Shown here in pieces: positions 1,846 through 47,434 of a stretch of 64,000 bases of DNA. This DNA is from a virus: the IMG/VR virus record IMGVR_UViG_3300009034_000020, positions 1 to 64,000 of that record; one strand, written 5' to 3'. Under the pieces are notes generated by a model, which searched no databases, had not been told where the DNA came from, and saw nothing but the letters and a program-made list of their open reading frames with translations. Every line of letters starts with the position of its first letter. Positions within the stretch are counted from its first letter, which is position 1. Position numbers and translations under genes: made by a program.

Positions 1846-3045
1846 TCAGTCCTCCGTCTCTACATAGGTCTGGGGATTCAGGGTGATCCCAGACCGGCCC
1901 AGGTGAGCGATAGGGTAGCCGAGCTGGCATAGGACCTTCAGCTTGTGCTCTAGGGGAATATGTACGTCGCCCACGGTCGCCAGCATATCCCCATCGTCGT
2001 GGCCCTGAAGTATAGCTCGTTCCCACCAACGGTTGCTAACATCGTGGGCGTCTTGGGCGCCTTCACCTATCAGGCTCACCAGCGCCACCTCGATGATGTC
2101 CTGTACGGTACCAAAGACCCGCTGGCGGAAGCACTCGCTCACTGGGCTAGGGTACTCGGTCCAGCGGCCATAGCGTGTCTCGGAGCGCTGCTGCTCTCGA
2201 TACACCGTGCTCTCTAGTGCACACCAAGCGCGAATTGCTGGGAGTTTCTTGTCCAGGACATCCCGCACAAGCTGCTCCGGCTCCGCTGGTAGCGGCCCGA
2301 TGTCACCCAGTCGGTACAGTACTCCCTCATCCTGGTCTAGTACTACCCAAGCCAAGAACGGCAGTACCTCGACATGGGGAATACCTAGCTCATTCGCCAA
2401 GTGGTCCACTGGATCCTCGTCCGGCGTATCCACGAAGAGGCGATAGAGCGTCGGGTCACCAGTAAGCGAAGCCAGCACACGGAGGAACAGGTGGTCATAC
2501 TTGACCTGCCACCTCCGCCCCTCCCCGTCCGGCGGTTGGAGGGCTATGTGCCGGGCTAGTGGTAAGCTGACACTTGTGTAGTACTCCCCCAGGTCAACGG
2601 TGAGCTGCGGCTCGATAACAGCGCAGTCCAAGGCATCCTGTGCGGGGGTACTGAACGCGGCCTGGCTGCAAACAGCATAGCCAGAGCAGTACTCCAGGAG
2701 CATGAGGTCTCCTACGAAGTGCTCGGCTATAGCTCTCCGCTCTGGTGTATGCATCCCAGGCTCGTAAGTGCCGAAGATGACATCGAGCAACTTGGGTAGC
2801 ACGGAGCGGATACTGCGCGTCACCAAGAGCGGGCCTTCCCGGCCAGTCAGGAGGCCCTTCAACATGGCCGCGCGCACCTTCCACAGCGCAACGGACGGTG
2901 GTAGCTCCACCAGCCAGGCCGCGTTCTTATTGGCAAAGCCCATGCGGTTATCGTCCCACAGGGCGAAGCCGACTGTTTCTTGTGTCCGAAGCCAGTCGCC
3001 CAGCTCCAGGATACTTATCTGATCGTTGACGGTGGCGACTTCCAT
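1846..3045 (-). CDS. family A DNA polymerase paralogue lacking catalytic residues (399 aa)
   Basis: The sequence follows the layout of a PolA exonuclease-plus-polymerase protein but has lost the active sites. Residues 182-200 (KYDHLFLRVLASLTGDPTL) align with motif A of the true polymerase of this phage (NADWSQLEVWVL...TGDPTL at 593-613). The catalytic Asp is replaced by Lys182 and the following Glu by Phe187. The motif B region (about 225-250) has no R-xxx-K. Residues 290-320 (RYGRWTEYPS, then RQRVFGTVQDIIEVALV) match the polymerase thumb/palm segment after motif B. Motif C (VHD) is not found near 355-362. The N-terminal 150 residues resemble a vestigial 3'-5' exonuclease fold (VGDLMLLEYCSGY), with no DxE. 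It may be a structural or regulatory partner of the active polymerase. It overlaps the KTSC gene by one base. Confidence 0.7.
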   Translation of the reverse strand: MEVATVNDQISILELGDWLRTQETVGFALWDDNRMGFANKNAAWLVELPPSVALWKVRAAMLKGLLTGREGPLLVTRSIRSVLPKLLDVIFGTYEPGMHTPERRAIAEHFVGDLMLLEYCSGYAVCSQAAFSTPAQDALDCAVIEPQLTVDLGEYYTSVSLPLARHIALQPPDGEGRRWQVKYDHLFLRVLASLTGDPTLYRLFVDTPDEDPVDHLANELGIPHVEVLPFLAWVVLDQDEGVLYRLGDIGPLPAEPEQLVRDVLDKKLPAIRAWCALESTVYREQQRSETRYGRWTEYPSPVSECFRQRVFGTVQDIIEVALVSLIGEGAQDAHDVSNRWWERAILQGHDDGDMLATVGDVHIPLEHKLKVLCQLGYPIAHLGRSGITLNPQTYVETED

Positions 3046-3263
3046 CAGTCTACCTCAGCGTAGGAGAACCCTCCGCCCTTGACTAGCTCGTTGAAAGCCT
3101 TGCCCAGTGAGTCGGCGAACAGGATCTCAGTCACGAGCCCCGCCGGTATGTCCTCGTAAGCGTACACCCGGCCATTATTGAACTCGACCAGCAAGACGTG
3201 CTCGTCCTTGTGGTACTCGAACGAGGTAATCATGCTGGACTCAACCGCTAGCTTCTTCGCCAT
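3045..3263 (-). CDS. KTSC-domain protein (72 aa)
   Basis: Residues 5-70 match the KTSC domain, which occurs alone in phages and at the end of some lysyl-tRNA synthetases: the VESSMITSFEYH opening, a beta-rich LLVEFNNGRVYAYEDIP core and a closing SLGKAFNELVKGGGFSY. Its biochemical role is not established. I prefer the ATG at 3261-3263, which follows GGAGAGGTGG; an in-frame TTG six bases upstream is possible. Confidence 0.85.
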   Translation of the reverse strand: MAKKLAVESSMITSFEYHKDEHVLLVEFNNGRVYAYEDIPAGLVTEILFADSLGKAFNELVKGGGFSYAEVD

Positions 3264-3855
3264 GGTCAACCACCTCTCCTTCTACTACCTCTTCTTCGTC
3301 CTCCGGAACAGGGTCTAGGAGCTTCAACTCCTGGAACTTCCTAAGCATCGTCGGCGGGATCCTGGCGTTCGGGTCGGCCTGGATCATAGCCAGCGCGATC
3401 TTCTCGGCCAGGTTCAGGTGCGTCACGTCCACATCGACCTTCCTTCTTTCGACGATGAGGCCGCCCGCCTTCAGTAGGAGCTCACCCACCTTCAACCTGA
3501 TGGCATGATCGGGGACAGTAGTCCCCCAGGTGAACTTCTCGCCACAGAATGGACACTTGATCTCCTCCTTGATGCCCTTCTCTGCCTTTGCCGCGGCAGT
3601 GATGAGGCCGGTAGCCTCCATGGCGGCGAACTCCAGGGCCTTCTTAGCCCCCTCGGTCATGCTACCGAAGAGCTTGCTGTAGGCTGCTATGAAGCCGTTA
3701 TCCGTACGTATCCACCGAGACGCCCGCTGCGGCTGGATACCTGTTTCCGCGCACGCCTCGTGCCAATCGCCACAACGTATCAGCGCCTCCAGGAAGGCAC
3801 GCTGGGCCGGAGTCAGTCGATCAGCGTCTCGCCTCCGCGCTGGCCCAGTCACCAT
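3241..3855 (-). CDS. putative terminase small subunit-like DNA-binding protein (204 aa)
   Basis: The N-terminus (about residues 14-60, LTPAQRAFLEALIRCGDWHEAC then RWIRTDNGF) is the helix-turn-helix pattern of phage small terminases, which bind packaging sites. A central segment has CPFC and a helical region. The tail is very acidic (EDEEEVVEGEVVDHGEE), as in oligomerising TerS proteins. The ATG at 3853-3855 follows GGAGCCTAAC and lies just beyond the stop of the upstream gene. It lies about 42 kb from, and on the opposite strand to, the large terminase, which is unusual. It could instead be a regulatory protein with the same fold. Confidence 0.65.
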   Translation of the reverse strand: MVTGPARRRDADRLTPAQRAFLEALIRCGDWHEACAETGIQPQRASRWIRTDNGFIAAYSKLFGSMTEGAKKALEFAAMEATGLITAAAKAEKGIKEEIKCPFCGEKFTWGTTVPDHAIRLKVGELLLKAGGLIVERRKVDVDVTHLNLAEKIALAMIQADPNARIPPTMLRKFQELKLLDPVPEDEEEVVEGEVVDHGEEASG

Positions 3856-3856
3856 G

Positions 3857-4111
3857 TTAGGCTCCGCCGATGATATGCCAACGCAGGAACCGGAACTCCC
3901 AGCCGACCAGCTTCTGGCTGTATAGACCAAATGGCCCAAGCACGAGCATGAAGCCAGGCTCTTCGCCACCGAAGTAGGAGAAGAACAACCCGACCCCATA
4001 GCACTCCATGCTGTAGCCGAAGATGAAGCCGAAGGCTATGGCTCCCGGAAAGAAGTCCTCCCCGACTGGTTCGGCGCCGTATACCACTGCTGCTGGGGGT
4101 ATCGTTCGCAC
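3857..4111 (-). CDS. hydrophobic hypothetical protein (84 aa)
   Basis: Not recognised. It is rich in Phe, Gly and Tyr, with one or two possible membrane segments (about 20-45 and 48-65). It starts at GTG after AGGAGGTGTAGAGAG, immediately after the polymerase stop, and is the first gene behind the promoter at 4132-4160. Confidence 0.75.
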   Translation of the reverse strand: MRTIPPAAVVYGAEPVGEDFFPGAIAFGFIFGYSMECYGVGLFFSYFGGEEPGFMLVLGPFGLYSQKLVGWEFRFLRWHIIGGA

Positions 4112-4115
4112 CTCT

Positions 4116-6716
4116 CTACACCTCCTTGTCTAGTGTAACCACGTTTCCATTAGCTGTCAAGACCGTCGTCTGCTCTCCCAGAGAACGTCCCCAGGAGACC
4201 TCGACCGGGCATTGCCAACCTAGTTTCGTGCCATCTGGTAGTATAGTCTCTTTCGCTACCCGCTCCCAGAGGTTCTTGATGAGCCATGCTGTCTCCAACG
4301 TGTACTCTGGGCTTGGAGCCTTAGCCTCAAAGACCAGCGAGTCATGGACCTCTAAGATAATGTTGGCACGGCCCTTCAATTCCTCCGCGCCCTCGGTCAC
4401 CACATGCGCGCGGCCGTGAAGGTCATGACCACCACTCTGGATGGGGAAGTTGTAACCCTTCCGAATGAGCTTCTGTAGGTCGTACTTGTACCCCAGGATC
4501 TGGAGTATCGGGATCTCCGGGAAGTGCCGCCATCTACCGAACTTGTTCTTGATACGGTAGTCGGTCAACATCCCCCGCTCTATCTCCTTGAAGTAGGCCG
4601 GGAGGGTTGGGAAGATGTCGGTCACGTACGCACCCATCAGAGCATGGGACTCATTCATCCCACACCCCAAGCGAGACGCAGCACCCTCATCGGTGAGCCC
4701 GTAGTTGATGCCGAAGGTGAAGACCTTGGCCTTCCCCCGCAGCTCGCCGAATTCCTGGCGCCAGTCCTGGTCATCCATGCCTACCCCCACATTGGGGAAC
4801 AAGTCGCTAATCTCTAGCTCGCCCAACTTACGAGCCACATAGGTATGGACATCCTCGCCACCCAGCAGCAACCCCATCAAGGTCGGATCCCCCGTCTGGT
4901 AGCCCAGCACCCACACCTCTAGCTGGGACCAGTCAGCGTTCATCAGGACACAGCCAGGCGGGGCGATGAAGAGCTGCCGGAAGGCATCCTTTAGCCCTAG
5001 TTCCGGGATGTGTATGTCCTTCGGTGGGTTCTGGAGGTTCGGCTTCTCGTATGAATGCCGCCCTGTGTCGGCGAAGCTCACCTTGACGTGCGCGTGGATG
5101 CGGTTGTCGGAGCAGATGTAGCGCCCGTAGCCACCAGTATCGCCACCGAGGTAGGTACTATAGAACTTGGTGGCACCCTTCAAGTCCAGGATTATCGGGA
5201 TGGCAGGATGCTTGTGCTCGGCATAGAGCGCCTCCAGCACCGCCTTATCTGTCGTCACATGGTCGATACAGGGATGCTCTTTGGTGCACACCCCGCAGCC
5301 CTTGGCACCGTCTGTCCGCTCATTAGGGATGGGGAACCCAAGGTCCTTGAACAAGTACTGCTGGAGCCCCGCCGGGGCCATGCTGACCTTCTTCCCGGCT
5401 ACCTCTTGGAGCTGCTTCTCGTACTTCTTGGCGACACCCGTGTAGTGGGTGCAGAGCTTCTTGAATAGCTTCGTGTCCACCAGGACCCCGCGGCGCTCCA
5501 TCTCCCAGCAGGCGCGTACAAGGGGCGTGGTGATGTTGTCTAGTAACCAACCGCTACCCTGCTCATTGACCTTCTCCTGGAGCTGCGGCGCAATGCGGGC
5601 AACTACATCCGCATCCGCCGCGCCATACTTCCACGTGATGATGTCTGGCACGTCTATCATGCGGCGCTTCCGCTGCGACAACTGCATGACCTCCTCCTCG
5701 TAATAGGGGAGATCAGTCCAGAAGGCGGTCAGATCTGTCAAGTGGTGCGACACGTTCTCCTGGAGGGCACGGCTGAGGAACAGTGTGTCTTGGTCCAGGT
5801 TCTCTACCCGTAGACCGAATGCTGTAGCAGCGGTGATGATCTCTTCGTCCTGGCGGCGCTCCAGGAACCGAACGTCGAAGTGTGCGTTCTGCCCCTGCTT
5901 CGGCTTATCGGAAGCGAAGATCTCACGCAGCAGGCAGATTACCTCAGCCCACTCGTTGTCGTTCCAAAATGGCTCCCAGCCCTGCCGGAGGATGGGTACG
6001 ATATAGCCAACGCCACCCTCATTCGGTGAGAAGGTGATGCATATCAGCTCGTCCCGCATCCAGTCTAGGCCCGTGGTCTCGGTGTCGAAGGCGAATGACT
6101 TGACCTCCGGCCCCACCAGGTAGGTCCGCAAGGCACGCAGGTCCGGCAGGGACAGGATAGGGGCGTAGTCGCCCATGTTCTGGCTACCTACCCCAGACTT
6201 CGCTAGACGAGCGGCCTTCTGCATGTGCGCCACGACCATCGGTGTCGCCGCCCACCTCCGCATGACGAATGCCGGGTGGTATGTTGGGACTAGGGGGATC
6301 CCAGTATCCTCCTGAACGAGGGTCTGTCCCGCCACGTCGCCGAGGACCATACGCCGGTAGAGCGTAGCTAGAGCCGGCACGCCCAGAGTCACGATGACCT
6401 TGGGCTGCACCCGCTTGATGATCTCGATGACGTTGGGCCGGCAGTTGGCCAGCTCTTCCGGCCTAGGCGTCCGGTTACCCGGCGGCCGGCAGAAGCAGGC
6501 GTTGAGTAAGTAGATCTCAGATGGCTTGAGACCCGCCTGCTTCACTAGCGTTGCTAGGACACGCCCAGCCTTGCCGACGAACGCCTTTTCCTGCTCGTCC
6601 TCTTCCCGCCCAGGAGCCTCTCCCAGGAAGAGGAGGTCGGCATGAGCAGGGCCTCGGCCCTTGACGATCTTAGTCCGGCTCTTGACCAGGCTCGGACACT
6701 TCTGGCATGTGGTCAA
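4116..6716 (-). CDS. DNA polymerase I with N-terminal family 4-type uracil-DNA glycosylase domain (866 aa)
   Basis: Residues 1-170 form a uracil-DNA glycosylase of the iron-sulfur type: GEAPG at 32-36, the CRPPGNRTP segment at 76-84, HPA at 147-149, and Cys4, Cys7, Cys76 and Cys92 placed as 4Fe-4S ligands. Residues 205-380 are a DnaQ-type 3'-5' exonuclease with D211-T-E213. The polymerase carries motif A NADWSQLE (593-600, Asp595), motif B R660...K664...F668..YG and motif C VHD (790-792), all intact. An extra Cys cluster (474-483) lies in the insert before motif A. Polymerases with a glycosylase-like N-terminus are known from SPO1-type phages. The start is TTG at 6714-6716 behind GGAGCAGGTTACG, inside the upstream gene. 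This is the replicative polymerase; the glycosylase could sense or remove uracil ahead of synthesis. Confidence 0.93.
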   Translation of the reverse strand: MTTCQKCPSLVKSRTKIVKGRGPAHADLLFLGEAPGREEDEQEKAFVGKAGRVLATLVKQAGLKPSEIYLLNACFCRPPGNRTPRPEELANCRPNVIEIIKRVQPKVIVTLGVPALATLYRRMVLGDVAGQTLVQEDTGIPLVPTYHPAFVMRRWAATPMVVAHMQKAARLAKSGVGSQNMGDYAPILSLPDLRALRTYLVGPEVKSFAFDTETTGLDWMRDELICITFSPNEGGVGYIVPILRQGWEPFWNDNEWAEVICLLREIFASDKPKQGQNAHFDVRFLERRQDEEIITAATAFGLRVENLDQDTLFLSRALQENVSHHLTDLTAFWTDLPYYEEEVMQLSQRKRRMIDVPDIITWKYGAADADVVARIAPQLQEKVNEQGSGWLLDNITTPLVRACWEMERRGVLVDTKLFKKLCTHYTGVAKKYEKQLQEVAGKKVSMAPAGLQQYLFKDLGFPIPNERTDGAKGCGVCTKEHPCIDHVTTDKAVLEALYAEHKHPAIPIILDLKGATKFYSTYLGGDTGGYGRYICSDNRIHAHVKVSFADTGRHSYEKPNLQNPPKDIHIPELGLKDAFRQLFIAPPGCVLMNADWSQLEVWVLGYQTGDPTLMGLLLGGEDVHTYVARKLGELEISDLFPNVGVGMDDQDWRQEFGELRGKAKVFTFGINYGLTDEGAASRLGCGMNESHALMGAYVTDIFPTLPAYFKEIERGMLTDYRIKNKFGRWRHFPEIPILQILGYKYDLQKLIRKGYNFPIQSGGHDLHGRAHVVTEGAEELKGRANIILEVHDSLVFEAKAPSPEYTLETAWLIKNLWERVAKETILPDGTKLGWQCPVEVSWGRSLGEQTTVLTANGNVVTLDKEV
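4132..4160 (-). promoter_or_regulatory. leftward promoter inside the 3' end of the polymerase gene
   Basis: Minus strand TTGACA - 17 bases - TACACT. The GTG of the gene at 3857-4111 lies about 20 bases downstream, so terS-like, KTSC and the polymerase paralogue can be expressed apart from the polymerase. Confidence 0.7.
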
Positions 6717-7164
6717 CGTAACCTGCTCCTAGCACAGCCAATACCTCTAGAGCCTCCTCGTCCGTCTCGACGATGAGCGAGCAGGCTTCCTTGACAAAGA
6801 TATGGCTATGGATGTTGTTCGGCTCCATGAGCACTAAGATGTACTTCCCATGATCATGCGCCCGCTGGATCTCCATGCAAGTGCCAATGGACACCTGGTC
6901 AGCGCCCAACAAGCGAGCGAAAAGGACATCGCACGTACGTACGTCGAAGCAATCGCGGCCATAGACGCCCTTCTGGGAGCTGACTGGGTGCTGTTCATAG
7001 CCCTCGGTAGTGAACTTCCGCACACGCTTCAGATGTTCCTTACCACGCATGGGGGACACGGCGGTATGACCTAGCTGGTGGAGTTGTGCGGCATACTCCT
7101 CACGCCACTCGACAGCACCCTTGTAGGTCTGCCCCGCAATCGGTCCTGCTAGATAGATTCTCAT
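6670..7164 (-). CDS. nucleoside 2-deoxyribosyltransferase-like protein (164 aa)
   Basis: The N-terminus MRIYLAGPIAG and the block GADQVSIGTCMEIQRAHDHGK (about 89-109) are the two signatures of the nucleoside 2-deoxyribosyltransferase-like fold: a Rossmann-like opening and the Gly-Thr/Glu active-site segment. Enzymes of this fold move deoxyribose between bases or hydrolyse modified nucleotides. The gene is coupled to both neighbours (ATGA with the gene upstream, 47-base overlap with the polymerase), pointing to nucleotide supply or clean-up for replication. Exact substrate unknown. Confidence 0.8.
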   Translation of the reverse strand: MRIYLAGPIAGQTYKGAVEWREEYAAQLHQLGHTAVSPMRGKEHLKRVRKFTTEGYEQHPVSSQKGVYGRDCFDVRTCDVLFARLLGADQVSIGTCMEIQRAHDHGKYILVLMEPNNIHSHIFVKEACSLIVETDEEALEVLAVLGAGYVDHMPEVSEPGQEPD

Positions 7165-13561: not shown

Positions 13562-13748
13562 GTTTGTCCCCCAGTACGAGGTGGGCCTCGTCCATCACTG
13601 CCAGGAAATCCGCCACCACAACGTTGTCGAACATGATGTCATCGTACTCACGGCAGTAGGTCTCAGCGTCCGCATTGAGGTCCACGAGCGCTCGGAGTAC
13701 CTTCCGCAACGCAGCAGCATCTGCTAGTGCATCATCCTGTTTGCTCAC
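13542..13748 (-). CDS. hypothetical protein (68 aa)
   Basis: Not recognised. It is a small acidic, helical product wedged between recA and the SbcC N-half and overlapping both. It starts at GTG after GGAGAAGACCC. Its placement suggests a link to recombination, with no motif to define a role. Confidence 0.8.
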   Translation of the reverse strand: MSKQDDALADAAALRKVLRALVDLNADAETYCREYDDIMFDNVVVADFLAVMDEAHLVLGDKREPEGS

Positions 13749-14775
13749 GGGTCTTCTCCTTCGGTAGTGGGATCTCCCAGTCAGATGGTGACTTGGCTAT
13801 CAGCTTCTGGAGTTCCTTGTCTGCCTCCAGGATAGGGCCGAAGTCCGCATGGCGGAACTTCCTGCCTTTGTAGTCGTACCATCCCTTGTTCTCCACGATG
13901 ATGCCAGCCTCTACAGCGCAATCGAGGGATGACCCTACCTTGTCGATGCCAGTCTGAAAGTCGATGTCGAATAGGCACTCGCGGTAGGGGTTGTGCACCG
14001 TACTCTTCACGATGTGCGCCTTGACCTTGATACCAGTCGGCCTCTTCGGGTTGGCCCCCAGCCGTTCTACCTCCATCAGGTGGACCTTCAAGCTGGACCA
14101 GTAGTTGAGCGTCTTCTCCCCAAGCATCGTCATCTCGTCCTTCTTCCACCTAGAGAAGTCTACCTTGTGGCGGAGCTGGTTGACGAGTACGAGAGCAATG
14201 CGCTCTCGTGCGATGAGGGGGTGGAGTTTGCGGAGCGCTCGGCTAAGCTCTCGGGCATGTGCTGCTACGTTGGTCTCGCCAAAGTCTGCCTCTACGTCGG
14301 CCTTCGATGGAGAGCCAGCGATAGAGTCGTAGACGATGGTAACCAACCGGTCAGGGAATTGCTTCCGGGCTACCACGATAACGTCCCTGATCTGACGCAG
14401 CACATCTTCTAGTGTCTCGCCTTGGAGCTGCATGAGCAGCTCATCCGTGATGCCCAACCGAACAGCACGGTCCATCCAATAGCGCCGCTCACTATCCGCC
14501 AGCACAGCGATACCTCCGCGCCGTTGTGTCTCGGCCAGGAGGTGGAGGCCAACGGTTGACTTACCGCTGGCCTCCGTGCCAATGAGAGTAGTGAGGCGGC
14601 CTACAGGTATACCAGGGTGGCCGAACATGTAGTCCAGCACTGGGCACTGGGTACTCACGTACTCAGTGACCTTGGAAGCAAGCTGAGCGCCAGCGCCGAC
14701 GATGATCTTGTCGTCCCCAAGGGTCTCTTGGAGCGACTGAAGTTCCTCGACCTGGCGCTTGCGGCTACTCGGCAT
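13732..14775 (-). CDS. RecA/UvsX-type recombinase (347 aa)
   Basis: The RecA core is clear: Walker A GTEASGKST (66-74), the aromatic-linked strand LADSERRYW, Walker B TIVYDS near 145-151 and the L2-side motif VLVNQLR. It polymerises on single-stranded DNA and drives strand exchange in recombination-dependent replication. The ATG at 14773-14775 overlaps the SSB gene by 11 bases, so SSB and recombinase are made together. Confidence 0.95.
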   Translation of the reverse strand: MPSSRKRQVEELQSLQETLGDDKIIVGAGAQLASKVTEYVSTQCPVLDYMFGHPGIPVGRLTTLIGTEASGKSTVGLHLLAETQRRGGIAVLADSERRYWMDRAVRLGITDELLMQLQGETLEDVLRQIRDVIVVARKQFPDRLVTIVYDSIAGSPSKADVEADFGETNVAAHARELSRALRKLHPLIARERIALVLVNQLRHKVDFSRWKKDEMTMLGEKTLNYWSSLKVHLMEVERLGANPKRPTGIKVKAHIVKSTVHNPYRECLFDIDFQTGIDKVGSSLDCAVEAGIIVENKGWYDYKGRKFRHADFGPILEADKELQKLIAKSPSDWEIPLPKEKTREQTG

Positions 14776-15805
14776 TCGATACAGCCTTCCGCAACCGCTT
14801 CATTGCGGCCCCGCCATCCGCCTCGGCATCCTTCTTCGGGCGGCCACCACGCTTCTTCTTCGGGGCCTCTTCAGGCTCGGCCTTCGGGGCCTTGGCCGTG
14901 GGGTCAGGTTCAGAAGGTGTACCAGCAGCCATGGCCTCCGGGAGTGCCGCGCCAATCTTGGCGAGCTCCTCCTGGATCTCTGGGCTGGGGTCCTCTTCCT
15001 CGTCCTCGCCCTCGGGTACCTCCCTGTACTCGCCCTCGATAGCCTCTGCCTCCTCCCCGTCTACCGGGATGGCCCCTCTCTTCAGGCGGGGCGTCTCTTC
15101 ATCTCCATCGACCTCCGTGAACGGGTCGCCGGTGCCCCGGCCCTCGATCAACGCTTCTACTTCACCCTCACTCATGAAGGTGACTAGCTCGGTCAAGTCG
15201 TACCGGGTCTCAAGGATCTCTTCCTTGCCGGGGAAGGGACAGGGGTCGGTCACGGTGATCTTGTACTCCGAGTGCAGGTCCTCTCGCAGGCGCCGGATGA
15301 GGACATTGCGCCCCGTCTCCATGTGAGTCAGGTCACCCGCATGCTCAAACTCGTCGTCGAGTGCACGCAAGACCTTGGGGCGGATGGCCATCACGTAGAC
15401 GAGCTCGTCCACCAGCTCGCCTTCGTCGTCCAGCTTCACCACGTTGGCGTAGCTGTTCCACGTGGGGCGGAGGCGGTCGGCCTCATCCTTATTGCCGGCA
15501 TTCCGCAGGCGGTAGGAGAGCTGACACACGGGGCAGTCGCCGATCTCCATCTTCTTCAGGCAGGCGATAGTGCGCTGCGCACCGGGGGGACCCACGTTGA
15601 AGTGGACCGCCACCGGCCAGTACCACGTGTGCTTACCCGTCTCCGGGTGGACCATGTTCTCATGCGGCGGCAGGATGCGAATGAAGTTTGGAAGGTACTT
15701 CGTCTCGCCACCTCGGAGCTTGAAGAACCGAGGCCCGGCCTGCATCTTGTCTCGGAACCTCTCCGAGCTCTCCTGGTCAGCGGTAGGGTAACTGTAGTCG
15801 CTCAC
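14765..15805 (-). CDS. gp32-like single-stranded DNA-binding protein (346 aa)
   Basis: The region FKLRGGETKYLPNFIRILPP followed by CPVCQLSYRLRNAGNKDEADR and SYANVV matches the zinc-containing OB-fold of T4 gp32-type SSBs in phages. An acidic stretch (about 225-285) resembles the gp32 acidic tail. Beyond it, however, comes a basic tail with an AT-hook-like KKRGGRPKK and ending KRLRKAVSNAE, which is unusual. It starts at GTG behind AGGAGGTGCATCA and is the first gene behind the promoter at 15841-15870. Confidence 0.85.
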   Translation of the reverse strand: MSDYSYPTADQESSERFRDKMQAGPRFFKLRGGETKYLPNFIRILPPHENMVHPETGKHTWYWPVAVHFNVGPPGAQRTIACLKKMEIGDCPVCQLSYRLRNAGNKDEADRLRPTWNSYANVVKLDDEGELVDELVYVMAIRPKVLRALDDEFEHAGDLTHMETGRNVLIRRLREDLHSEYKITVTDPCPFPGKEEILETRYDLTELVTFMSEGEVEALIEGRGTGDPFTEVDGDEETPRLKRGAIPVDGEEAEAIEGEYREVPEGEDEEEDPSPEIQEELAKIGAALPEAMAAGTPSEPDPTAKAPKAEPEEAPKKKRGGRPKKDAEADGGAAMKRLRKAVSNAE

Positions 15806-15823
15806 TGATGCACCTCCTAGTGA

Positions 15824-16744
15824 TCATTGGTTGCAACCTAACTGTACCATAGGCTGGCGTGCCTTGTCAAGAGCCTCCGCCACTTGCCGGTCTGTAGCGG
15901 AGCAGGGATCCTCCCCCTCTGGGAGTTGGGCCACGTAGACCTGGAACCCTGATGCCATCAGAGTATCGGCATCCCTACGAGCGGCGGCGCGGCCAGCCTC
16001 GTCGCCGTCTCTCATCAGGATGATACCACGGAAGCCATGTGTACGCAAGAGGTTGACCTGATGGTCGCTCAGCACCGTGCTCAGTGTCGCTACCGCATTC
16101 TCCCGGAGCCGGAGGGCATCGAGTACTCCCTCGACCACGATGCATAACGGTGGCGTCACGGTGGATAGGTTGAACAGGGCCTGACTAGCTTTGCTGTGCT
16201 CGGGCATCAGGACCTTCTTCTCCATGGTAGGGAACATGGCACGAGCGATGAATGTAATGAGCCGTCCATCTGTCCACACGGGTATGATAAGGCGGTAAGC
16301 ATACAGCCCATGCAGGCAGTACCCAATCCCATAATGGGGAGCCAGGGAGGGGCGGAGGCCCCTGCTCTGCAAGTAGCGAGCTGCCATGTCGTCCACCCCA
16401 CTCGATGGGATGAACTCTTTAGGCAGCTCCACCTCTACCTGTGTTATCTCCGCTGGCGGACGTACTACCTCGCCACCCTTCCGCCGCTCGCCAATGATAC
16501 GCCCAGCTAGCATGTAGGCATCGAACCTACCCATGTCCAATAGCTCCCTGAAGAGCTGGGACAAGCTACCCGACTCGTCGCAATGGAAGCAGATCCAAGC
16601 ACCATGTTCAGTACTGATGTATAGATGGCCGGTATCGTCGCCGCAGGTATCGTGCACCATGACAACCTCGGTCTCACCAGAGGCGAGGCGTGGCGCAAAC
16701 CCGGCACCCTCTAGCGTGTCAAGCAGTAGCTCAACATCAATCAT
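15824..16744 (-). CDS. DnaG-type DNA primase (306 aa)
   Basis: An N-terminal zinc site (VHDTCGDDTGHL ... WICFHCDESG, about residues 30-60) precedes the primase core and a TOPRIM domain with IVVEGVLDAL and LMRDGDEAGRAAA. It makes RNA primers on the lagging strand with the helicase encoded immediately upstream. The ATG at 16742-16744 overlaps the helicase stop by eight bases, behind AAGGAACACC. Near 306 aa it is about the size of T4 gp61. Confidence 0.9.
   Translation of the reverse strand: MIDVELLLDTLEGAGFAPRLASGETEVVMVHDTCGDDTGHLYISTEHGAWICFHCDESGSLSQLFRELLDMGRFDAYMLAGRIIGERRKGGEVVRPPAEITQVEVELPKEFIPSSGVDDMAARYLQSRGLRPSLAPHYGIGYCLHGLYAYRLIIPVWTDGRLITFIARAMFPTMEKKVLMPEHSKASQALFNLSTVTPPLCIVVEGVLDALRLRENAVATLSTVLSDHQVNLLRTHGFRGIILMRDGDEAGRAAARRDADTLMASGFQVYVAQLPEGEDPCSATDRQVAEALDKARQPMVQLGCNQ
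15841..15870 (-). promoter_or_regulatory. leftward promoter upstream of the SSB gene
   Basis: Minus strand TTGACA - 18 bases - TACAGT, inside the last codons of the primase gene, about 35 bases before the SSB start. Suits the high demand for SSB and RecA. Confidence 0.7.
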
Positions 16745-18080
16745 GGTGTTCCTTGAAGGGGTCGCTCTCTCTCTTCTTGAACCAGGGGTAGCCAGTGTCG
16801 GCATCACGCCCAAAACCGACTGTCATCTCGCAGCCCTTGCCTCTGGAGGCATGTAGGCTGTCCTTGAGGACGTAGAGCTTCATGACAGGGCCACGTGGAT
16901 CGTCTGTCTGCTCCTCCCTAGTCTGGGACAGGCCCAGGACAATGTGCGCCCGGCGTACCTTGTCGAAGCAGTCACCTACTTGGCGTAGGCTGACTACTCC
17001 CTTGTCCACCGCATCCTTCGTAGCCTGGGTGCTAGTCCAGATCGCCACCTCTAGCTTGCGCGCCACGTCATTTCGCAGCGCCGTGTAGATCTGCCCCTGC
17101 GCCTCGTACCGGTTCTTCGTCTGGCCCAGCGCACGTAGGTCATCGGCGCTGTCGAGGATGATAAGGTCAGGCTTGAGGCCCGCCCGGTCCAGGTCCTGGA
17201 CGGCAGCGATTAGCTCTGGTACGGTCTCCACGTCCTGACGCACGTCGAAGAACGCTTTGTCCAACCCCTTCCGTTCTCGCCACGCCTTCAGCACCTCCAT
17301 CAGCTCCTTGCCCTTGGGTAGCTTGGTGATGGGCTGCCTCAAGATGGCAGCGACGATGCGCCGGCTAGTCTGTGTTGGGGTGAGCTCAAAGGTGTATACG
17401 AGCACCCGCTTGTTGGCGAGCCATGCCTTCGCCGCCAGGTAAGCTAGCGTCATGGACTTCCCAACGCTGGTGGCGGCGAGGACTACTGCAAGGTCATTGG
17501 GGTGGAGACCCCCGTCTATGTGGTCGTCAAGGTCGCCGCTACCTAGGGGTAGGCCAGTAGGGATAGCGCTCGGCGCTCTACTCACCCACTCCATGCGCTC
17601 ACCCATCTCGGGCAAGAACCCTACCGTGGTGATGCGCGTGTCCTCTTCGTCCCGGAGCTGGCGTAGGGTAGCTAGCTTGTCCGCCGCCTCCTCAACATGA
17701 CCTCGCTCAAGCAGGGTCTGTGCCTCATCAGCGGCTCGGTACACCCACCTCCCACGCAGCCACTCGGCAGCCTGGTCACGGACAGCAGGTAAGGACCCAC
17801 CCTCGGCCAGGTTCTCATGCATGATCTGGAGGTAGAGGCTGAACAGTGCCTGACCCTGCTCCCGTGGGTACTCCTCCAACCGGGCCTTGACTGCCTGTGG
17901 GTAGAGGATACCATGCTGCCGCTTCCAATAGTCGAGCGCCAGCTTCGCCAGCTCCTTGAGCAGGCCCCGGTCACCAAAGTCTTTGGGCTCAATTTGCTTG
18001 GCATGTGCCTCCATGAACTCTACATCCGAGAAGAGGAGGGCGGCGCACCATAGGAAAGGTTGGCTCAGCTTGCTAGCCAT
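16737..18080 (-). CDS. DnaB-type replicative helicase (447 aa)
   Basis: An N-terminal helical domain (about 1-150) is followed by a RecA-like core with Walker A AATSVGKSM (202-210), Walker B DLIILDSADD and the late LKDSLHASRGKG segment typical of DnaB/gp41 helicases. It unwinds DNA at the fork and recruits the primase next door. The ATG follows GGAGTAGGCC. Confidence 0.93.
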   Translation of the reverse strand: MASKLSQPFLWCAALLFSDVEFMEAHAKQIEPKDFGDRGLLKELAKLALDYWKRQHGILYPQAVKARLEEYPREQGQALFSLYLQIMHENLAEGGSLPAVRDQAAEWLRGRWVYRAADEAQTLLERGHVEEAADKLATLRQLRDEEDTRITTVGFLPEMGERMEWVSRAPSAIPTGLPLGSGDLDDHIDGGLHPNDLAVVLAATSVGKSMTLAYLAAKAWLANKRVLVYTFELTPTQTSRRIVAAILRQPITKLPKGKELMEVLKAWRERKGLDKAFFDVRQDVETVPELIAAVQDLDRAGLKPDLIILDSADDLRALGQTKNRYEAQGQIYTALRNDVARKLEVAIWTSTQATKDAVDKGVVSLRQVGDCFDKVRRAHIVLGLSQTREEQTDDPRGPVMKLYVLKDSLHASRGKGCEMTVGFGRDADTGYPWFKKRESDPFKEHHD

Positions 18081-38274: not shown

Positions 38275-38362
38275 GGAGGGGTGGCCAAATGGCAAGGCGC
38301 TGGCTTCGAAACCCAGTGAGGCGCTACGCGCTATGGGAGTTCGAATCTCTCCCCCTCCGCCA
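38275..38362 (+). tRNA. tRNA-Ser (CGA)
   Basis: Acceptor GGAGGGG/CCCCTCC, D-stem GCC/GGC, anticodon loop TTCGAAA, long variable arm GGCGC-TAC-GCGCT, T-loop TTCGAAT, discriminator G and encoded CCA. The pair below the anticodon loop is a C.C mismatch. The long variable arm confirms serine. Confidence 0.92.
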
Positions 38363-38365
38363 CAA

Positions 38366-38456
38366 GGCTGGGCCGCGGAGATTGGCGAGCCGCGCCGGCC
38401 CGTAAAGTCGGTGGCCCTTGAGGTCTGAGCATGTTCGAATCATGCCCCAGCCACCA
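38366..38456 (+). tRNA. tRNA-Tyr (GTA), C33
   Basis: Acceptor GGCTGGG/CCCAGCC, D-stem GCGG/CCGC, anticodon stem CCGGC/GTCGG, loop CCGTAAA, long variable arm as in bacterial tRNA-Tyr, T-arm GCATG/CATGC, A73 and encoded CCA. Position 33 is C instead of the near-universal U, and position 8 is also C. Confidence 0.88.
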
Positions 38457-38457
38457 T

Positions 38458-38531
38458 GCGCGACGAGTCGGACGGTAAGACATTTGCGTGCCATGCAAAG
38501 GGAAGGAGTTCAATTCTCCTGTCGCGCACCA
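38458..38531 (+). tRNA. tRNA-Gly (GCC)
   Basis: Acceptor GCGCGAC/GTCGCGC, short D-stem GTC/GAC, anticodon stem TTTGC/GCAAA with loop GTGCCAT (U33 normal), T-loop TTCAATT, A73 and encoded CCA. Position 8 is G. Confidence 0.92.
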
Positions 38532-38532
38532 T

Positions 38533-38608
38533 AGGGGATTAGCTCAGTTGGTAGAGCGCTTGGTCTACACCCAAGATGTCGGGGGTTCAAGTCCCTCATC
38601 CCCCACCA
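38533..38608 (+). tRNA. tRNA-Val (TAC), C33
   Basis: D-stem GCTC/GAGC, anticodon stem CTTGG/CCAAG with loop TCTACAC (anticodon TAC, C33), T-stem GGGGG/CCCTC, A73 and encoded CCA. The first acceptor pair is an A.C mismatch (AGGGGAT against ATCCCCC). Confidence 0.88.
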
Positions 38609-38609
38609 T

Positions 38610-38684
38610 GGAGGCGGTAGTGTAACGGCAGCACGGTAGGTTGTGGCCCTGCTAGTTCGAGTTCGAATCTCGACCGTCACCCCA
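38610..38684 (+). tRNA. tRNA-His (GTG)
   Basis: Anticodon stem GTAGG/CCTGC, loop TTGTGGC. G at 38610 faces C73 (38681), the extra G-1:C73 pair that defines histidine tRNAs. The acceptor GAGGCGG/CCGTCAC has one A.A mismatch and one G.T pair. CCA is encoded. Confidence 0.9.
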
Positions 38685-38685
38685 T

Positions 38686-38760
38686 GGGGGACTAGCTCAC
38701 CTGGGAGAGCACCGGTCCTGCAAACCGGAGAACAGAGTTCAAGTCTCTGGTCCTCCACCA
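38686..38760 (+). tRNA. tRNA-Ala (TGC), C33
   Basis: Acceptor GGGGGAC/GTCCTCC contains the G3:U70 alanine identity pair; D-stem GCTC/GAGC; anticodon stem CCGGT/ACCGG; loop CCTGCAA (C33); A73 and encoded CCA. Confidence 0.9.
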
Positions 38761-45594: not shown

Positions 45595-45711
45595 ATGGAA
45601 TGGGAGACTGTCCTGATTCTAGTCAACTCCCTCGATACGCTGCTGGGAGTCGGCATCCTTGCCTTTGCTGGGTATGTCGCATATCGCCGATGGTGGAAGC
45701 GTGACAGCTAA
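45595..45711 (+). CDS. 38-aa membrane peptide
   Basis: GGAAGGAGGCAGCG precedes the ATG. MEWETVLILVNSLDTLLGVG continues as a hydrophobic helix with an Arg/Trp/Lys end (YRRWWKRDS). It ends 11 bases inside the terminase start. Size and single helix are compatible with a small holin or membrane anchor. Confidence 0.65.
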   Translation: MEWETVLILVNSLDTLLGVGILAFAGYVAYRRWWKRDS

Positions 45712-47434
45712 TGTACCGGTAAAGGAACTCTTGTTCGGCGGGATCGACCCAGAGAGCGATCTGCACAAGATCCTCCTGGACCCGACCCCGGAGTGGACGC
45801 AGAAGTGGATCGAGTCCTTCTTGAGCATCGACTCGGAGCAGGGCGCTATCGTTTCTTTCAAGCTCTACCCGCAGCAGGTCCAGATGCTCTACGGTGGGAC
45901 CGGCCGCGACGTTACCATCAAGGGCCGCCAGACGAGGGCTTCCTCGTTGTTGCTGGCCCGCAACCTCCGCCGCATGACGACCGGCTCGGGGTTGAAATGC
46001 GTGGTAATGACGCAGGACGACCAGACGACAGCTACGTTCCGGGAAAGGCTCAAGCACCACCTGCGTGACCTGGCTACGCACGGGCTGGAGTACATAATCG
46101 CCCTGGACAACGACAACGAGCTGGTGATTGGCGACCTGGAGAACCGTTACATGTTCACCTCGGGTGAGCAGCGAGTCGCTGGGCGAGCCATTACCGGACA
46201 CATAGTCCATCTCTCTGAGGTGGCCCACTATCCGATGGACAAGGCGTACACGCTCCTCGGCGGTATTACGCCGTCCGTGCCTGGGCCGCCCTATGGGCAA
46301 TTCGACATGGAGAGTACACCAAAGGGGGCGGAGGGTGTCTTCTACGAGCACGCGATAGGTGCCAAGCCGATGAACCCAGAAGACGATTGGACGGTCCACC
46401 TGTACCCCTGGTGGTTAGAGCCGCGTTATGTCGTGGGTACCGGAACTGCGGTAGATAAGAAGGTAACGGAAACGGAACTCGCTCGGCGAATCGCCGAGTT
46501 CGAGCCTAGCCCGGATGAAGCGAAGCTCATAGAAGAGTTCGGGCTAAGTGTCCCACAGATCTTGTGGCGCCGAGTCACCTGGCGGGCGATGGCGAAGACT
46601 GATACGCCGTTCCTCCAGGAGTTTGTCGAGCGGATCGACACGTGCTTCGTAAGCGCGAGCGAGAACTTCTTCGCTAGCCCGGATGGCGTGGACCACCTGG
46701 CCTACTACCGTGTCGGGCTGCGGGAGCCGGTCATGAAGAAGGAGACGCTACCTTGGGCTGGCGGAGACATCAGTTTCTTCGGGTCGAATCTGTCGATCTG
46801 GGAGTTCCCACAACCGGGTGAGGTATACGTCGGCTGGATGGACTGTGCCGGCGGTGGCCTCGATGAGAGGAGCGACTTCACAGCGTTGACGGTGCTGAAC
46901 GTGCAGACGATGCACCACGTGGCTACCTTGCGGTTGAAGGTAGCGCCGACTGAGGCGGCAGCCATGGCCGCTGCCGTGATGAAGTACTACAATTCGGGAG
47001 CCCTAGGTGGCGAGCGAGATGCATACGGCGCGACCTGCGTGAGCACTCTAGAACGGATAGGCTACCGGAACCTGTGGTACTACACCGATCCTACGAGGAA
47101 TGTGGAGCCGCAGGTATGGGGCCACCCGACACAGGTGCGGGACAAGATCCTGGAATCCCTACGCAAGCAGGTCTTCGAGCATAGCCTCGTGACCTCAGAC
47201 AGGATACTCCTCCAGGAGATGGGTTCCTTCGGTTGGGCTAAGGCTCGCGGTACGCGGAAGGCAGTAGGAAAGCAGAGTCACGATGACCTTGTGTTATCTA
47301 TGGCGGGGGCCACGTATATCGCGCCCTTCTATCGCGCCCGAGCTAAGGCCCCGGATGAGCCCATATTGATCGATAAGCACGGGCTGGTTATAAGAAAGGG
47401 GTCGCGTAAAGGCCCCCAGCCGTGGATGAGGTAG
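45701..47434 (+). CDS. terL: terminase large subunit (577 aa)
   Basis: ATPase domain: residues 71-85 (VTIKGRQTRASSLLL) are the TerL Walker A region but with Arg where Gly/Lys is usual. HIVHLSEVAHYP is the Walker B-like segment of this TerL group, followed by the coupling motif FDMESTPKGAEG. Nuclease domain: WMDCAGGGLDERSDFT, a central acidic segment and KQSHDDLVLSM give the RNase H-like triad. It pumps DNA into the head and cuts concatemers. The start is GTG 45701-45703, inside the membrane peptide gene; ATGs upstream lack sites. Confidence 0.93.
   Translation: MTANVPVKELLFGGIDPESDLHKILLDPTPEWTQKWIESFLSIDSEQGAIVSFKLYPQQVQMLYGGTGRDVTIKGRQTRASSLLLARNLRRMTTGSGLKCVVMTQDDQTTATFRERLKHHLRDLATHGLEYIIALDNDNELVIGDLENRYMFTSGEQRVAGRAITGHIVHLSEVAHYPMDKAYTLLGGITPSVPGPPYGQFDMESTPKGAEGVFYEHAIGAKPMNPEDDWTVHLYPWWLEPRYVVGTGTAVDKKVTETELARRIAEFEPSPDEAKLIEEFGLSVPQILWRRVTWRAMAKTDTPFLQEFVERIDTCFVSASENFFASPDGVDHLAYYRVGLREPVMKKETLPWAGGDISFFGSNLSIWEFPQPGEVYVGWMDCAGGGLDERSDFTALTVLNVQTMHHVATLRLKVAPTEAAAMAAAVMKYYNSGALGGERDAYGATCVSTLERIGYRNLWYYTDPTRNVEPQVWGHPTQVRDKILESLRKQVFEHSLVTSDRILLQEMGSFGWAKARGTRKAVGKQSHDDLVLSMAGATYIAPFYRARAKAPDEPILIDKHGLVIRKGSRKGPQPWMR

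Follow-up and report, generated by a model that had tools for sequence, protein, structure and literature searches.

The window analysed here, a stretch of 64,000 nt that forms part of a virus record of 72,816 bases, carries a gene for an inactivated homologue of the family A DNA polymerases at positions 1846..3045 of the minus strand. The assignment draws on the open reading frame itself, on homology of its product to PolA, and on a homologue in a second virus contig (L002). Sequence comparisons make it secure that the C-terminal half of the 399-aa product (approximately aa 140-399, 260 residues) is a true, very divergent and shortened family A palm/fingers. Most of its catalytic residues have been replaced, and the gene is kept by purifying selection about as strong as that on the polymerase encoded nearby. 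We put the chances as about even that the protein is a family A pseudoenzyme serving the phage replisome as a non-catalytic, protein-binding subunit of a structural or regulatory kind. The case is built on only two related genomes.

The first-pass annotation had placed a 399-aa product at these positions; the frame is indeed intact, with an ATG start at 3045, and it lies on the minus strand, the plus-strand reading of the same interval being full of stops. Upstream is a KTSC-domain gene (3045..3269, minus strand) whose stop overlaps the start of the inactivated polymerase gene by 1 nt (tgATG), an overlap that is repeated in L002, and the gene downstream starts within two bases of the stop. The wider setting is, as had been claimed, a replication gene cluster that includes an intact PolA. 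Along the minus strand the order runs DnaB-like helicase, primase, single-strand binding protein (SSB) and RecA/UvsX recombinase (these four at 13732..18080), SbcC- and SbcD-like genes, a RuvC-like resolvase, a fusion of UDG, 3'-5' exonuclease and family A polymerase (UDG-exo-PolA), three small genes and the inactivated homologue. The 866-aa fusion (4116..6716, minus strand), encoded about 1 kb upstream of the inactivated homologue and its candidate partner, is intact, matching PF03167, PF01612 and PF00476 with catalytic residues present. The fusion is of a known type, since PHROG 17 spans the UDG and the polymerase in a single alignment. Directly before it, at 6670-7164 (minus strand), is a nucleoside 2-deoxyribosyltransferase-like protein, a possible link to the nucleotide pool or to modified bases. 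The protein encoded at 3241-3999 (minus strand), conserved at 226-252 aa, has an apparent HTH and a CxxC...H zinc-like motif and no family match; by eye it resembles small terminase or DNA-binding proteins.

The relationship to PolA is below Pfam detection. Pfam and PHROG scans of the 399-aa protein gave no match, and PF00476 misses it even when the search is limited to this virus record. In a phmmer search against all PDB sequences the protein found Taq PolA (E 5e-4, aa 181-325), the only other matches being to kynureninase at E 0.15 or worse, and a two-sequence profile reached Taq with an E of 1.2e-4 (hmmsearch); across both searches kynureninase stayed at 0.1 or worse. A forward PolA HMM scored the protein above 5000 shuffles and above the window's other ORFs, the real polymerase excepted; the score was weak, so that a profile-profile comparison was needed. 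Against a reference profile of 80 diverse bacterial PolA loci, hhalign aligned aa 179-351, the span from motif A to motif C, with a probability of 95.5%, an E of 1.4e-8 and a score of 69.8, whereas the maximum among 150 column-shuffled controls was 29.5 against the same PolA profile and 31.2 against any profile. Local alignment of aa 136-399 to 73 bacterial PolA palms gave a mean z of 9.9, and when 50,697 phage records were searched by tblastn, the sole match (E 0.09) was to a bona fide bacterial-type PolA, aligned from motif A to C. Taken together, these results secure homology for the C-terminal part, and through its palm/fingers the protein belongs by descent to the family A DNA polymerases. 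The palm resemblance that the first pass had seen by eye is thus borne out, and profile comparison, the kind of check that it had proposed, did match the protein to PolA. The motifs that it had listed as common to the 399-aa protein and the 866-aa polymerase, TGDPTL (aa 195-200) and (F/Y)GRW-xx-(F/Y)P (aa 292-298), are likewise there.

Loss of the active site was judged from columns that are invariant in active PolAs, the neighbouring 866-aa polymerase included, and hhalign and three MAFFT modes agree on the assignment of these columns. The column of the catalytic motif A Asp holds Lys182 (2500..2502; this codon and those that follow are on the minus strand), which is also Lys in L002, and Phe187 (2485-2487) stands in place of the motif A Glu. 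In the motif B remnant (aa 232-245, 2311..2352) the Arg, Lys and Phe have become Ala232, Leu236 and Glu240, with Gly241 and Tyr244 kept, and the Q-helix Gln is Phe311. The counterpart of PolA FGRW/FGRR is YGRW at aa 292-295 (2161..2172), with its Arg294 kept, and motif C retains His349-Asp350 (1996..2001), ILQ-G-H349-D350-D aligning with ILQ-V-H-D-E. Earlier claims that Lys182 occupies the motif A Asp position and that motif B lacks R-xxx-K therefore hold, while the claim that there is no VHD motif C was mistaken. The description of the protein as catalytically dead fits the loss of most catalytic residues and has to be qualified by the survival, in motif C, of one of the two catalytic aspartates. 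Measured against a family A enzyme, the motif A Asp/Glu and the motif B R-xxx-K-xxx-F are missing and the motif C His-Asp is present, the states of motifs B and C being known from one protein only, as the L002 copy ends before both. With the motif A Asp/Glu, the motif B Arg/Lys/Phe and the Q-helix Gln replaced, and with no room for a normal thumb, templated nucleotide addition should not be possible.

The lack of room follows from length. Motif A is preceded by just 181 residues. The neighbouring polymerase, counted from the end of its UDG domain, has about 235 more, which leaves the 399-aa protein too short to hold both an exonuclease domain and a thumb. About 45 residues lie between the N-terminal domain (aa 1-135; 2641..3045, minus strand) and the palm, and no alignment to a thumb was found, its absence being judged by length. 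The position of the N-terminal domain and its predicted beta-beta-beta-alpha start would fit a degenerate exonuclease domain, a reading that the sequence does not support. The by-eye alignment to the exonuclease region of PolA gained no backing from the statistics: hhalign scores against exonuclease domains fall within the shuffled null, and the mean z to bacterial exonuclease domains is 0.13. Nor does the 399-aa protein have a PF01612 match or a recognisable DEDD set. Where PolA has the end of the exonuclease domain and the thumb sits aa 104-166 (2548..2736, minus strand), one of the best-conserved segments when the two phages are compared (AEHFVGDLxLLEYCSGxAVCxQAAF...DALDCAVIEPQLT). C120, C126 and C141 (window 2623-2688), inside this stretch, are conserved in both phages.

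Structure prediction, which the first-pass annotation had suggested as a check, gave an answer that depends on the input. AF2 run on the two-sequence alignment without PolA rows reached a pLDDT of only 38. With PolA rows it reached a pLDDT of 64 and a pTM of 0.56, with good confidence for aa 1-50 (pLDDT 83-89) and for the palm/fingers, and the top PDB fold matches of this PolA-guided model were all family A polymerases, a match that is partly circular because the PolA rows bias the input. In an alignment with PolA split into exonuclease and palm rows the exonuclease part was misaligned, and that version was dropped.

The L002 homologue is 66% identical to the window protein over 213 aa, the contig end cutting it after aa 219, and the L002 polymerase is 74% identical to the window's 866-aa polymerase. 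Gene order is the same in both phages (polymerase, small ORF, 252-aa type gene, KTSC gene, inactivated homologue), with one extra ORF inserted in L002 such that the homologue lies four genes past the polymerase. The inserted ORF (L002:10859-11311), absent from the window, resembles an HNH homing endonuclease on visual inspection. An acid is found at position 184 in both phages, Asp in the window protein and Glu in L002. Estimates of dN/dS for the inactivated homologue were 0.16-0.25 (three methods, 205 codons) versus 0.10-0.16 for the polymerase, all of them approximate with dS near saturation.

Whether related phages keep both genes with the same substitutions had been posed as a further question. 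L002 keeps both genes, with the same Lys182, and it is the only relative found: contig scans and tblastn, in which close relatives alone are detectable, yielded no other in viral contigs, genome contigs, phages or plasmids, and the neighbourhoods of several other phage PolAs hold no inactivated companion. Such a gene is likely to be rare, as far as these sequence scans can tell. Matches to the motif A pattern in L107 and L108 were due to chance, and a 389-aa protein beside the polymerase of L011 proved unrelated. The phage PolAs of L008, L009 and L011 have non-canonical motif A surroundings (EQDLNQA, SCDYVNL and DIDLSSA, respectively) with the Asp kept.

As to the origin of the gene, a tree built from palm sequences places the inactivated homologue on a maximal branch, loosely with bacterial-type PolA, and its FGTVQDI is closer to bacterial QGTAADI than to the neighbour's QSGGHDL. 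A clade that joins it to the neighbouring polymerase gives a slightly poorer fit and is neither supported nor rejected (p-AU 0.119). The earlier description of the protein as a paralogue of the same phage's polymerase is therefore compatible with the test without being supported by it; on these sequences the gene could be either a duplicate or an acquisition.

Comparison with known systems helps to define what is unusual here. Bacterial PolA (PF00476; Taq, Klenow) shares with the 399-aa protein a collinear palm/fingers from motif A to C, the YGR/FGR motif, the GT of the Q-helix region and the motif C His-Asp, and it differs in its catalytic motif A and B residues and its thumb. The spacing from motif A to C is 168 aa, versus 175 in Taq and 177 in E. 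coli, figures that we take from the known numbering of these enzymes. The UDG-exo-PolA of the same phage (PHROG 17 type) resembles the inactivated homologue in TGDPTL, FGRW-xxFP, adjacency and a synteny common to two phages, and is unlike it in being catalytically intact and in carrying QSGGHDL.

Extra divergent PolAs have been described in phages as divPolA1 and divPolA2 (PMC11348598). In the divPolA1 of Flavobacterium immuto phages and their relatives the thumb is reported to be truncated and the exonuclease domain inactive, with the catalytic palm conserved (PMC11348598). Like the protein studied here, it is a family A protein of approximately 400-440 aa with a truncated thumb, additional to a regular DNA polymerase and encoded near SSB, RecA-type and helicase genes; unlike it, divPolA1 keeps the palm catalytic residues. 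As closer kin divPolA1 was rejected, its hhalign score of 17.1 being at noise level compared with 69.8 for the PolA profile. The divPolA2 of barbaviruses, reported to have an active palm (PMC11348598), is likewise a divergent extra PolA in a phage genome and has no sequence similarity to the inactivated homologue. Inactivated polymerase modules that serve as subunits are known from the C-terminal half of Pol epsilon (PMC2669801) and from ImuB (PMC12926913). In these systems, too, a module without catalysis is kept beside an active polymerase, but they are cellular and belong to families B and Y, whereas the present case is a family A protein encoded by a separate phage gene, with a partner that is only presumed. 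No inactivated family A companion, from phage or otherwise, is described in the open-access literature searched.

If the inactivated homologue is a replisome subunit, it would be translated together with the replication proteins and would most simply contact the UDG-exo-PolA. The known geometry of family A suggests that Lys182 may pair with the surviving Asp350 in a salt bridge that takes over from the metal ions, and this would account for the retention of motif C. Contacts might be made through an acidic surface and through aa 104-166, the best candidate. The protein has a pI of 4.8 and a net charge of -24 (its palm/fingers part has a pI of 4.6), which together with the missing thumb argues against its holding primer-template as PolA does. 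That said, acidity is weak evidence, since the neighbouring polymerase (net -20 for the exonuclease and polymerase part) and SSB are acidic as well.

Other explanations for a conserved, inactivated PolA can be entertained. The protein might act outside the replisome, for example by decoying a host defence or factor that recognises PolA, or by regulating host PolA or the partners of that enzyme. Such a role would suit its faster divergence relative to the polymerase, its acidity, its lack of a thumb and its narrow distribution; we consider it unlikely, given the location in a replication cluster of conserved order, selection similar to that on the polymerase, and the absence of neighbouring accessory genes that point to counter-defence. 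The first-pass annotation had offered a processivity or regulatory role, which is plausible; processivity through DNA binding would make the protein a fork-tethering factor of the UDG-PolA. The gene is close to the polymerase, and a search of the virus record turned up neither a beta-type or gp45-type clamp nor a thioredoxin, leaving the processivity factor unaccounted for. That absence alone does not assign the job to the inactivated homologue, and it carries little weight: the record is possibly incomplete, the host could supply such factors, and the gp45 search had a weak control, its profile picking up no proper positive. A protein with no thumb, no basic residues in motif B and a net charge of -24 seems quite unlikely to bind DNA in this manner.

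It is also conceivable that the active site has moved and not vanished, with the acid at position 184 replacing the lost Asp of position 182 and working with His349-Asp350 in a divergent nucleotidyl transferase. The presence of that acid in both phages and the retained motif C His-Asp are in keeping with this idea, and in divPolA1, too, the motif A Asp is followed two positions later by another Asp. Yet Ala, Leu and Glu have taken the place of the motif B Arg, Lys and Phe that hold the incoming nucleotide, and with the Q-helix Gln gone and no thumb this is improbable. The very long branch and the loss of domains could, finally, mean that a polymerase gene, acquired or duplicated, is decaying here without function. 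Decay is hard to reconcile with an ORF and a start-stop overlap that have both stayed intact in two phages despite near-saturated synonymous divergence, or with the dN/dS values given above, and we give it almost no credence.

The replisome-subunit reading has a more specific form, in which the phage replicase is a family A heterodimer of the active UDG-exo-PolA and a catalytically inactive, PolA-derived subunit. We hold this version tentatively and think it somewhat doubtful. Many phages, as well as mitochondria, have polymerases of family A, and inactivated subunits are already known in B- and Y-family systems. If the heterodimer were real, the pseudoenzyme principle of those polymerases would extend to family A, and a partnership with the phage PolA would make this the third family to have taken the same route to a multi-subunit replicase.

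Elsewhere in the window, six tRNA genes (Ser, Tyr, Gly, Val, His and Ala) are clustered at 38275-38760 (plus strand). The large terminase subunit, encoded at 45659-47434 (plus strand), is very divergent, its best phage matches being approximately 23-30% identical, which indicates that this phage is remote from cultured phages.
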